Source: Pseudomonas sp. NC02 (lineage in GTDB: Bacteria; Pseudomonadota; Gammaproteobacteria; Pseudomonadales; Pseudomonadaceae). From it: a stretch of DNA of 64,000 nucleotides. Position numbers and translations under genes: made by a program. Below the pieces are notes generated by a model. The model ran no database searches, was not told the origin of the DNA, and was given only the letters and a program-made list of their open reading frames with translations. The DNA lies in assembly GCF_002874965.1 (NCBI RefSeq), contig NZ_CP025624.1:2790001-2854000 (forward strand), read 5' to 3'. This document shows positions 1,830-64,000 of this stretch, piece after piece; positions within the stretch are counted from its first letter, which is position 1, and each line of letters starts with the position of its first letter.

Positions 1830-2149
1830 GGTGTTGGGTTCCGGGAGGAGATTTCGCCTGCGGACAGACGGGAGGGGGAAAAGTGGAGGTGATTATAGGA
1901 ATCGGTTTTGGTAAGCCAATAGGCGACTGGTTCGATAGTAATCATCAGTCTCGTTGATAAGACTGCCTGCGTAGAGCGTTCTCTTCCGTGTAGACCCTCG
2001 CGATTGCCCATGGCCCGACTCCGCGCGTAATCCGGCCCGATCCCGCGCGCCAGAAAAAATCCCCCGCTGCATCCTGAGCCTCGGCATGTCGGTTTTGCTG
2101 ACGTGCCGAAGCGTTTCAAGGCCGATCAAACAATAATAAAGAGGTGCTT
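1830..2149. other. Divergent intergenic region
   Basis: About 320 bases between the divergent MFS and serine-hydrolase genes. It must hold both promoters. A short minus-strand frame (about 1893-2129) has no recognisable motif and poor initiation context. The only clear element is the AAAGAGG ribosome site at 2138-2144. Confidence 0.5.
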
Positions 2150-61179: not shown

Positions 61180-62043
61180 TCAGCGCCGCAACTGCGGCTC
61201 GCCTTCAATGCAGCTCACCAGAAACTCCATCACCACCTTCACCGAAGGCGAGCGGCGCATATCCGGATACACCGTCAGCCAGATATCGCGAACCGGGCCT
61301 TCGGTGTTTGTTGCCAGGCGCACCAATGCCGGGTCGTGATCGCCCACCAGCGTGGGCAACACCACTGCACCCACCTGGGCCCGGGCGGCCATTTGCTGGG
61401 TGATCAGGTCGCTGGCGGCGAAGGCAATCGTGCGGTTGCCGCGTACCTGATGCATCCACGCCTGTTGGGGCAGGTGGTCGCGGGTGGCGTCATAGGCAAT
61501 GAACGTCCACTGTTCAGCGGGTAACTGCTTGAGCTCGGGCGTGGCATAGAGCCGGAAACGCACGGCGCCGACCTTTCTGCGTACCAGCGCTTCCTCATCG
61601 GGACGCACCGTGCGCAGGGCAATGTCGGCTTCGCCTTTGTCGAGGGCGGCCAGCGTCGTCGAGGACATCAACACGATATTCAGCTTGGGATACTGCGCCC
61701 TGAACCGTGCGACATGGGGCGCGATGCAGTGGATGGCAATCGACGGCGGGCAACTGACCCGCACGGTGCCGGCCACTTCGATCGAGGCCACGCGGGACAG
61801 GCGCATCACTTCGGTGGCCATCTCGCCCATGCCGGCCGCCAGCTTCGCCAGTGCCAGGCCTTCCTCGGTGAGCGGCCGGCTGCGGGGCAGGCGATCCACC
61901 AGTTTGACGCCGAGGGCTTTTTCCAGGGCATCGACGCGCCGGCCGACGGTGGCGTGTTCCACCTGCAGCTCGCGGGCGGCAGCCGACAGCGACTGGGTGC
62001 GTGCCAGTACGGTGAAGAAAAACAGATCCTGCCAGTCGAACAT
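61180..62043 (-). CDS. LysR family regulator (divergent to quinone reductase)
   Basis: 287 residues from the ATG at 62043; a long in-frame extension upstream overlaps the divergent gene and is not used. HTH about 4-62: FDWQDLFFFTVLARTQSLSAAARELQVEHATVGRRVDALEKALGVKL. C-terminal domain with GEADIALRTVRPDEEALVRRKVG. About 100 bases separate it from the divergent quinone-oxidoreductase gene, its likely target. Its stop is one base after that of the convergent GlxA-type gene. Confidence 0.9.
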   Translation of the reverse strand: MFDWQDLFFFTVLARTQSLSAAARELQVEHATVGRRVDALEKALGVKLVDRLPRSRPLTEEGLALAKLAAGMGEMATEVMRLSRVASIEVAGTVRVSCPPSIAIHCIAPHVARFRAQYPKLNIVLMSSTTLAALDKGEADIALRTVRPDEEALVRRKVGAVRFRLYATPELKQLPAEQWTFIAYDATRDHLPQQAWMHQVRGNRTIAFAASDLITQQMAARAQVGAVVLPTLVGDHDPALVRLATNTEGPVRDIWLTVYPDMRRSPSVKVVMEFLVSCIEGEPQLRR

Positions 62044-62145
62044 CGGGTTATTTCCGCACGGAGGTTGGGAGGTATTGGGGAATTCTCGTACAGAGTAGCG
62101 CCTTTTACCATGGCGCATTCCCACTGCAAACGGAGTTGTCTCGCG

Positions 62146-63144
62146 ATGAAAGCCCTCACCCTTGAAACCTACGGCGGCCCGGAAGTTGTTCAACTGCGCC
62201 ACGATGTCCCTACACCTCAGGTGACACCCGGCCATGTGCTGGTCAAGGTGGCCTGCGCCGGGATCAATTTCATGGATGTGCACACCCGCCAGGGCAAATA
62301 CGCCAGCTCGGTGACCTACCCGGTTAGGCTGCCGTGCACCTTGGGCATGGAAGGGGCCGGTGTGGTGGTGGCGGTGGGCGAGGGCGTGAGCCATCTGGCG
62401 CCGGGTGATCGAGTGGCCTGGTGCATTTCATGGGGCGCGTTCGCCGAATACGCCAGCGTACCCGCCGCGCGAGTGGCGCAGATTCCCAATGCGATCGGCT
62501 TCGATCAGGCGGCTGCGGCGATGTTCCAGGGCTGCACGGCTCACTACCTGATTGAAGATGTTGCGCGGTTGCAGGCGGGCAACAGCTGCCTGATCCATGC
62601 CGCGTCCGGCAGCATCGGCCAGTTGCTGGTGCAAATGGCCCGGCGACTCGGTGCCACGGTATTCACCACCGGCAGCAGCGTCGAAAAGTGCGCGATTGCC
62701 CTTGAGCGTGGCGCGGATCAGGCCTGGCAATACGACGGGTTTGCCGAGCGAGTCTTGCAGGTAACGCAGGGGCGGGGTGTGGACGTGGTGTTCGATTCGG
62801 TGGGTAAGGCCACCTTGCGTGAAAGCTTCAAGGCCTGTCGTACGCGGGGGCTGATCGTCAATTACGGCAACGTCTCCGGTTCGATCACTGACCTCGATCC
62901 GATGGAGTTGGGGGAGGCCGGTTCACTGTTCCTGACTCGCCCACGGCTCAACGACCACATGGCTGACGGGCCTACGGTGCAGAGGCGTGCCAATGCGGTG
63001 TTCGCGGCGATACTTGAAGGTTCGCTGACGGTGGATATCGAAGGGCATTACGCCCTGGAAGAGGTGCAGCAGGTGCACGCGAGGATTGAGGCACGGCAGC
63101 AGATTGGCAAGGCGGTGGTGTGGCTGGACCGTGAACTTCACTAA
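62146..63144 (+). CDS. NADPH:quinone oxidoreductase (zeta-crystallin-like, MDR family)
   Basis: 332 residues from the ATG at 62146 with GGAG upstream. No zinc ligands, as in QOR enzymes. GINFMDVHTRQGKY is the QOR signature near residue 40, LGMEGAGVVVAVGEGV follows, and the NADPH site is HAASGSIGQLLVQMARRLGATV (AxxGxxG variant SGSIGQ). It reduces quinones or similar enones in the cytoplasm. Divergent LysR likely regulates it. Confidence 0.9.
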   Translation: MKALTLETYGGPEVVQLRHDVPTPQVTPGHVLVKVACAGINFMDVHTRQGKYASSVTYPVRLPCTLGMEGAGVVVAVGEGVSHLAPGDRVAWCISWGAFAEYASVPAARVAQIPNAIGFDQAAAAMFQGCTAHYLIEDVARLQAGNSCLIHAASGSIGQLLVQMARRLGATVFTTGSSVEKCAIALERGADQAWQYDGFAERVLQVTQGRGVDVVFDSVGKATLRESFKACRTRGLIVNYGNVSGSITDLDPMELGEAGSLFLTRPRLNDHMADGPTVQRRANAVFAAILEGSLTVDIEGHYALEEVQQVHARIEARQQIGKAVVWLDRELH

Positions 63145-63159: not shown

Positions 63160-63291
63160 TGTGGCGAGGGAGCTTGCTCCCGCTGGGCTGCGAAGCGGCC
63201 CCAACACCTGCCAATGGGGTCTTCCTGGAGAAACGCGGTGAGTTCATTGGGGCTGCTGCGCAGCCCAGCGGGAGCAAGCTCCCTCGCCACA
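63160..63291. repeat. REPIN, GCGAGGGAGCTTGCTCCC class
   Basis: TGTGGCGAGGGAGCTTGCTC and its complement, 132 bases, with the internal GGGCTGCGAAGCGGCCCC arms. It starts 16 bases after the quinone reductase stop. Confidence 0.9.
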
Positions 63292-63330: not shown

Positions 63331-63357
63331 AAAAAAAGCCGGCTGATCAGGCCGGCT
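63331..63357 (-). terminator. Rho-independent terminator of the repeat-protein gene
   Basis: The minus strand reads AGCCGGCCTGATCAGCCGGC followed by seven T residues. The stem is 63337-63343 against 63351-63357. It lies about 27 bases after the repeat-protein stop, showing that this gene is a real, terminated transcript. Confidence 0.88.
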
Positions 63358-63383: not shown

Positions 63384-63731
63384 TTACGCGCGGTTTTCCA
63401 TCAGGCGGTCTGCACCACCTTCAGCCACACGGTTTTCTTGAAGACGGTCAGCACCACCTTCAGCTACACGGTTGCCCTGGAGACGTTCAGCGCCACCTTC
63501 AGCAACACGACGTTCCAGCAGGCGATCAGAACCACCTTCAGCAACACGACGTTCCAGCAGGCGATCAGACCCGCCTTCAGCAACACGACGTTCCAGCATA
63601 CGGTCAGACCCACCCTCAGCCACGCGGCTGTCCATCAGGCGATCCGCGCCGCCTTCAGCGAGGGCAGGTTGGGTAAAGGCGCTTACAGCAAGTACCGAGA
63701 AAGCGAGGCTAAGCAAGAGTTGGCGTTTCAT
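63384..63731 (-). CDS. Small exported protein of seven 13-residue tandem repeats
   Basis: 115 residues. A signal peptide (MKRQLLLSLAFSVLAVSAFT, cleavage after ALA at 25) leads to a mature part made only of repeats: seven units E-G-G-[SA]-[DE]-R-[LM]-x-x-x-R-V-A, 39 bases each (about 63656 down to 63387). Units 2-4 are near-identical at the DNA level. It is probably periplasmic or secreted. I recall similar Pseudomonas proteins named phage infection protein, but without proof. Gly-Gly/Arg periodicity suggests a regular solenoid or a disordered cationic chain. A good terminator follows. Confidence 0.82.
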   Translation of the reverse strand: MKRQLLLSLAFSVLAVSAFTQPALAEGGADRLMDSRVAEGGSDRMLERRVAEGGSDRLLERRVAEGGSDRLLERRVAEGGAERLQGNRVAEGGADRLQENRVAEGGADRLMENRA

Positions 63732-63868
63732 GAGGGTGTGCTCCGGGAAAGTCGTTGGTTGGTATGGATGCGATGTTACGCGGCAGATTTTTTAAGAGAA
63801 CTTCATTGGGCTGATGGTGACTATCGACGCCAGCGATGGCCCGTTTTCCCGGGCCATCGCGTCGCTCA
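63732..63868. other. Intergenic region with hairpin
   Basis: 137 bases upstream of the repeat-protein gene and downstream of the pirin gene. It contains the AT-rich likely promoter of the repeat gene (63785-63800) and the hairpin at 63833-63860. Confidence 0.4.
63833..63860. terminator. Hairpin after the pirin gene
   Basis: GCGATGGCCCG pairs with CGGGCCATCGC across a six-base loop, an 11-bp perfect stem nine bases past the pirin stop. There is no T-run on the minus strand, so it may end or stabilise the transcript rather than be a textbook terminator. Confidence 0.55.
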
Positions 63869-64000
63869 TCACGGCATTTCTGGCAGTTCCCGAGGGCGCA
63901 GGTCGAACACCAGCACCTCGGCGTCCTCCCCATGGCTCAGGTGAATCTCCCGCTCATCGCGCACTCGGGCGCCGTCGCCTTCGTGCAAGCGCTGGCCATT
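63869..64000 (-). CDS. Pirin family protein, C-terminal fragment
   Basis: 43 residues to the stop at 63869, the rest lies beyond the window. NGQRLHEGDGARVRDEREIH then GEDAEVLVFDL matches the end of YhhW-type pirins (short cupin proteins with quercetinase-like activity). The LHEGDGARV and EVLVFDL strands are the second cupin's last part. Identity is moderately sure because of the short length. Confidence 0.65.
   Translation of the reverse strand, partial: NGQRLHEGDGARVRDEREIHLSHGEDAEVLVFDLRPRELPEMP

Follow-up and report, generated by a model that had tools for sequence, protein, structure and literature searches.

The gene considered here is an open reading frame of 115 codons on the minus strand (63384..63731) of the window, by which we mean the whole 64,000-nucleotide stretch of Pseudomonas sp. 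NC02 DNA that was analysed; the same layout is found in the loci of 80 relatives. Its product starts with a leader of 25 codons, MKRQLLLSLAFSVLAVSAFTQPALA (63657..63731, minus), which reads by eye as a Sec-type signal peptide cleaved probably at ALA/EGG. The following 90 residues (63387..63656, minus) are resolved by Tandem Repeats Finder and translation into seven 13-residue units encoded by 39-bp repeats (period 39, 6.9 copies, 80% matches, score 237), the last of which is shortened and ends R-A, the V being absent. A sequence-only reading of this DNA had described an exported leader followed by a mature chain made solely of such repeats, and both features were recovered. Its proposal that the gene has its own terminator agrees with a terminator-like hairpin followed by a T-run (63337..63357, minus), for which the hairpin scan gives 1 structure against 0.8 expected in shuffles, while 5 of 200 shuffles fold equally well or better. 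Just 3' of this terminator lie two 45-bp inverted-repeat arms (63160-63204 and 63247-63291; 96% complementary, 42 bp between them) that we take to resemble a REP/REPIN element. A divergent LysR regulator and a zinc-binding oxidoreductase (61180-63144) adjoin the repeat gene in an arrangement that, we presume, recalls mexT-mexS. A PDB search with this LysR protein names MexT in 0 of 32 matches, a weak result since most of the names are generic.

Upstream of the start codon, a GGAG (63741..63744, minus), kept in most loci displayed, is the probable ribosome-binding site. Conservation among relatives delineates three further blocks on the minus strand. The first, CGTAACAT (63773..63780), could be a -10 region judging from its conservation, and a sigma-70 promoter scan found no promoter there. 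The second, CAATGAAGTTCTC (63796..63808), emerged from the upstream comparison of relatives. The third, ATCGCTGGCGTCGATAGTCACCAT (63814..63837), is a MexT-type nod box recognised from promoter conservation and the published consensus. A strong hairpin without T-run (63833..63860, minus; -25.6 kcal/mol, z -5.46, equalled by 0 of 200 shuffles) lies between the nod box and the pirin-type gene upstream, whose transcription unit it probably closes. The 3' end of this pirin/quercetinase-type gene occupies 63869..64000 (minus) and the gene extends past the window; the Pfam Pirin domain was shown for the relative at locus L011. The repeat gene is neighboured by pirin-type and oxidoreductase genes.

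Units 2 to 4 share 92-100% identity as protein and 87-95% as DNA, and the remaining unit pairs 59-82% as DNA; within the array pS is 0.535 and pN 0.144. This divergence limits the recent expansion that had been proposed for units 2-4 to units 3 and 4, which are 95% identical as DNA and are the only ones that look recently duplicated. The same picture is obtained for 1858 unit pairs from 80 loci (pS 0.373, pN 0.075, pN/pS 0.20): 44% of the pairs are identical as protein and 13% of these are exact DNA copies. Units are under purifying selection, therefore expansion is mostly not recent, and what keeps the units alike is mostly selection, not very recent duplication. A degree of homogenisation is seen too, internal units being 87.6% identical within a locus and 76.8% between loci (76 loci).

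The protein belongs to a large and well supported family. Scoring of 8000 candidates yielded 651 relatives at E 0.001, and matches are present in 383 of 398 Pseudomonas genomes, taken from a larger group with the own genome included, at 1-14 matches apiece, knowing that a single gene may yield more than one. A contig scan confirmed at least 195 relatives, of which the best 80 loci were used. The number of units was counted in 79 proteins, namely those of the window, of a paralogue in the same genome and of 77 of the 80 loci (L088, masked, and L032 and L087, at contig ends, were left out). It ranges from 4 (one protein) to 12 (three proteins), with 5 units in five proteins, 6 in eight, 7 in eleven, 8 in 21, 9 in 17, 10 in eight and 11 in five; the unit number, which the earlier reading expected to vary between strains, varies here between species. 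Clustering of neighbours within ~6 kb, with Pfam searches on representatives only, places the genes of the family in at least four differing neighbourhoods: a pirin gene and a DJ-1-type regulator, as in the window (29 of the best 80 loci), MatE, GGDEF or a third cluster (20), an ABC transporter, DUF3455, or a sigma factor plus DUF1615 (13), MlaD-type genes plus DUF1615 (7), and others or mixed (11). An asmA-type gene adjoins both the paralogue and a P. mosselii relative of 74.6% identity. The own genome also encodes, near 2.303 Mb (L091), a 70-residue protein composed of a leader and two A-E-G-G-A-[DE]-R-L units, in whose 220 bp upstream no MexT-type box was seen by eye.

The window protein is deposited as 'phage infection protein', a name shared by several named relatives among the best 120 of the 651. 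This name and the difference in unit number between species are the arguments for a role in surface variation or in a phage-related process, as had been suggested. Domain searches speak against it: the window protein has no Pfam match at E 10, PADLOC returned no match, and PHROGs matched four proteins no more than weakly (best E 0.0081 for the window protein and 0.0013, the overall best, for the paralogue), on which grounds a phage origin was rejected. No surface anchor was seen by eye in the window protein, the units are conserved rather than diversified, and the gene occurs in nearly every genome sampled behind one genus-wide type of promoter. We consider this role the least probable of all those discussed here, with hardly any weight left to it. 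A scaffold role, also put forward earlier, is possible.

The stretch upstream of the ATG is strikingly similar across loci despite their differing neighbours. Of 82 loci (the best 80, the window and the paralogue), 76 have the pattern ATYR-N7-YGAT-N4-ACYAT no more than 160 bp from the start, with its beginning 102-126 bp from the ATG. It occurs in 0 of 1640 shuffles, and flanking DNA has 3 occurrences in 1.75 million strand-bases. Five of the six loci missing the box (L026, L034, L052, L074, L082 and L083) are one base off, and the protein match of L082 has a start that is not an ATG. The pattern resembles the published MexT nod box, whose first half-site is ATYA; the window box, ~105 bp before the ATG, has ATCG in this position and is one base off. 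A stricter form of the nod box with ATCA is matched by 17 of the 82 loci. An exact copy of ATYR-N7-YGAT-N4-ACYAT is also found between genes at 1935-1958 (minus), where an MFS transporter gene (603-1829, minus) has its ATG 129 bp further on. This may mark a further target of the MexT type, but the reversed control likewise yielded 1 hit.

A longer pattern that includes ATGAA was searched in 41 hand-picked genomes, namely all 15 that lack a protein match and 26 that have one or, in many cases, several. It gave 67 hits in 27 genomes, with 0 in the reversed control and no exact hit in two of the 26 protein-match genomes (G014 and G018). In 30 Pseudomonas loci that were read, among them the own-genome paralogue (L122), 31 of 31 boxes precede a protein with a leader and repeats of the same core, some irregular, which begins 101-115 bp downstream. 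The promoter signature picks out members missed by the protein search: it finds the protein in three of the 15 genomes without protein match, with 12-residue units (L121), two units of ~25 residues (L128) or units of ~28 (L108), and the other 12 lack the longer pattern too. Among 293 sampled genomes of the order, the pattern occurs in 5 of 8 Pseudomonas and in 2 of 285 others. Three Pseudomonas genomes (G028, G111 and G151) have a protein match and no exact pattern hit, a repeat protein follows in each of the eight Pseudomonas loci that were read (L147 being the window gene), and both hits outside the genus lie inside open frames of ~600 codons without repeat protein. The own genome carries the longer pattern at two sites only, before the window gene and before the paralogue at 626 kb. 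Six more nod boxes with one mismatch (L100-L105) were dismissed as chance, as they overlap open frames of at least ~200 codons and the reversed control gives 1. Judged from sequence, it is very probable that the window gene belongs to this family and is under MexT-type control.

The references for scoring codon use were, in the own genome, five genes of ribosomal proteins and six genes in the vicinity of the window gene. The window gene scores +48.4 nats toward the ribosomal pattern over 111 codons, whereas the six neighbours score -55 to -91 each, and the paralogue reaches +0.32 per codon. Codon bias is thus no more neutral than unit number is constant. CGT and GGT reach the levels of the ribosomal set and GCT and GAA exceed them; CTG (0.47) and CAG (0.25) lie below both reference sets, Leu and Gln codons being off the ribosomal pattern. 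Foreign origin of the gene is less likely in view of its spread over the genus.

The paralogue connects the family to a described gene. It is found near genes read as ureE, ureF and ureG, beside the asmA-type gene, and near the orthologue of PA4880, the locus number that PA4881 follows directly. This orthologue, a ferritin-like gene, has as best PDB match 8W1D (287.6 bits), which is the DpsL of the PA4880 paper (PMC11150526). PA4881 of P. aeruginosa is described in PMC3557286 as an uncharacterised tandem-repeat protein under MexT; PA2206 raises it 7.7-fold and binds its promoter, and sensitivity to hydrogen peroxide was not raised in the case of PA4881. Other studies place PA4881 at the top of the table for a mexT deletion (log2 -6.5, PMC12607905), strongly down in parS and parR mutants together with mexEF-oprN (PMC3848899), and up with a MexEF-OprN-inducing compound (PMC10848761). 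Two reports are linked by name only. P. fluorescens In5 confronted with Rhizoctonia solani raises a 'phage infection protein' (AL066_13550) 32.4-fold, along with a pirin, azoreductases and quercetin dioxygenases (PMC5557065), and for strain 2P24 the InvF list contains another one, which has a Sec signal (PMC8490769). The window protein has a leader, recognised by eye, and tandem units with the core A-E-G-G-x-[DE]-R, which we infer to be a mark of the PA4881 kind from the position of the paralogue near the PA4880 orthologue. PA4881 being already known though uncharacterised, the window gene probably joins a known kind. A literature search by unit sequences gave no match, and the window-gene family is absent among the matches listed for MexT plus tandem repeat. 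Searches of mostly open-access literature showed no account of the genus-wide promoter rule, of the neighbourhood spread or of the results on selection and codons.

The composition of the protein gives hints of what it might do. Its mature chain has 16.7% Gly and 18.9% Arg, a net charge of -3 and a GRAVY of -0.98, and is devoid of Cys, His and aromatic residues. In a set of 79 proteins that leaves out L082 and L088, the charge-hydropathy relation classes 78 as disordered; Cys occurs in one of the 79 and one aromatic residue in two. The hydrophobic moment of the window protein is no higher than in shuffles, giving no sign of an amphipathic helix, and a PDB search found no relative, the sole match having E 0.23. 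A resemblance to RTX proteins was rejected by eye for absence of the nonapeptide pattern.

We tentatively favour the hypothesis, to which we give somewhat less than an even chance as a whole, that the window gene encodes an abundant, intrinsically disordered periplasmic protectant of the PA4881 kind, induced by stress under MexT-type control. Electrophile, quinone or disulfide stress would lead a MexT-type LysR regulator to activate the gene through the nod box at 63814-63837, upon which the exported repeat protein would be produced in large amounts. Once in the periplasm, this chain would act stoichiometrically and not enzymatically, its many identical E-G-G-x-D-R-L units serving as a hydrophilin/LEA-like shield or as weak multivalent binders of clients, and envelope proteins would be kept soluble. 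The protective mechanism, a conjecture from composition, codon use and regulon, is a shade more tentative than the whole, and we know of no protective activity of such repeat proteins. The computations that sustain the hypothesis concern the leader (by eye), repeats, promoter conservation, ribosomal-like codons, purifying selection and disorder-prone composition; control by MexT in NC02, periplasmic location and protective action are what we infer from them, the MexT control of PA4881 being taken from the P. aeruginosa literature. Another LysR regulator may act at the window gene, since PA2206 also binds the PA4881 promoter. Further points that weigh against the hypothesis are the hydrogen peroxide result for PA4881, the base by which the window box departs from the published half-site, a hydrophilicity slightly below 1 and the off-pattern Leu and Gln codons. 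Identical exported units would also suit a precursor cut into repeated 13-residue peptides active outside the cell, the R-V-A/E-G-G junctions being like the leader junction A-L-A/E-G-G. However, Arg at -3 is unlike a signal-peptidase site, neighbourhoods differ and no protease or transporter is linked to the repeat gene, so that we hold such processing for very unlikely.

The strongest rival to the protectant account stems from the core of the unit. A-E-G-G-x-[DE]-R could be a short linear motif to which one particular protein of the envelope (a protease, a chaperone or a sensor) binds; seven copies would titrate this partner in stress, and PtrA-like proteins carry one copy. Across 566 units no other part is as well conserved as this motif, which recurs with unit lengths of 12, ~25 and ~28 in the three genomes found by promoter only. 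PtrA-like and other small proteins encoded in the same genome also have it behind their leader (EGGGDR in L092, EGGSERS in L093, DDGADRS near 985 kb). However, no partner is known for it, a motif this short may be due to chance or convergence, and the single-unit similarity to the PtrA type is under the family cut-off. The NCBIfam model NF041599 (PtrA N-terminal domain) scores the window protein at 59 bits for a cut-off of 31, a sum over six stretches; its single stretch gives 17.4 bits and the paralogue 11.3, both below the cut-off, which 3 of 8 other proteins exceed. The resemblance to PtrA is therefore treated as a shared motif and not as membership. We regard motif display as rather unlikely. 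Genes of small proteins in which a single EGG/DDG-x-[DE]-R motif comes directly past the leader lie near 985-987 kb (L092) and near 3.864 Mb (L093) of the own genome; we read those of L092, the PtrA-like gene included, as having an RND-type gene and a two-component system in their vicinity. An extension that we rate as distinctly less probable would make A-E-G-G-x-[DE]-R a periplasmic address motif of Pseudomonas stress mini-proteins. The same partner might then be engaged regulon by regulon (CopR/CzcR for copper/zinc, MexT for electrophiles), through a single copy in PtrA-like proteins and multivalently in the window protein, where the number of units would set the avidity.

The MexT-type promoter, the near-universal presence in Pseudomonas and the ribosomal-like codons had been overlooked by the sequence-only reading. 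Its statement that the function of such chains is not established holds, so that nearly all Pseudomonas sampled encode, with the codons of very highly expressed genes, a family that lacks an established function and bears a misleading database name. MexT-type control, which is probable, would link this repeat protein, so far an orphan, to a defined stress and to the regulator that governs a major efflux pump.

The name 'phage infection protein' refers to Pip/YhgE, a long multi-pass membrane protein with its own Pfam domains, whereas the window protein has 115 residues and is hydrophilic past its leader. PtrA (PA2808), small, exported and stress-induced, resembles the window protein by a leader followed by A-E-G-G-x-[DE]-R. 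PtrA has one motif and copper/zinc control, whereas the window protein has seven motifs and its gene has pirin-type and oxidoreductase neighbours instead of a metal two-component system. Hydrophilins have glycine above ~6-8% and mean hydrophilicity above 1; the window protein has 0.98 and the 79 proteins a mean of 0.91. With hydrophilins and group 3 LEA proteins, the window protein shares short repeats, richness in glycine and charge, near absence of Cys and aromatics, proneness to disorder and, probably, control by stress. It differs from them by a 13- instead of an 11-residue unit, by its leader and by hydrophilicity just under 1, and is not known to be related to them in sequence. The closest known system is PA4881, likened by context and description: both are tandem-repeat proteins that very probably share MexT-type control, and the paralogue near the PA4880 orthologue has the same promoter, but the window gene lies elsewhere, beside a pirin-type gene, and encodes regular 13-residue units.
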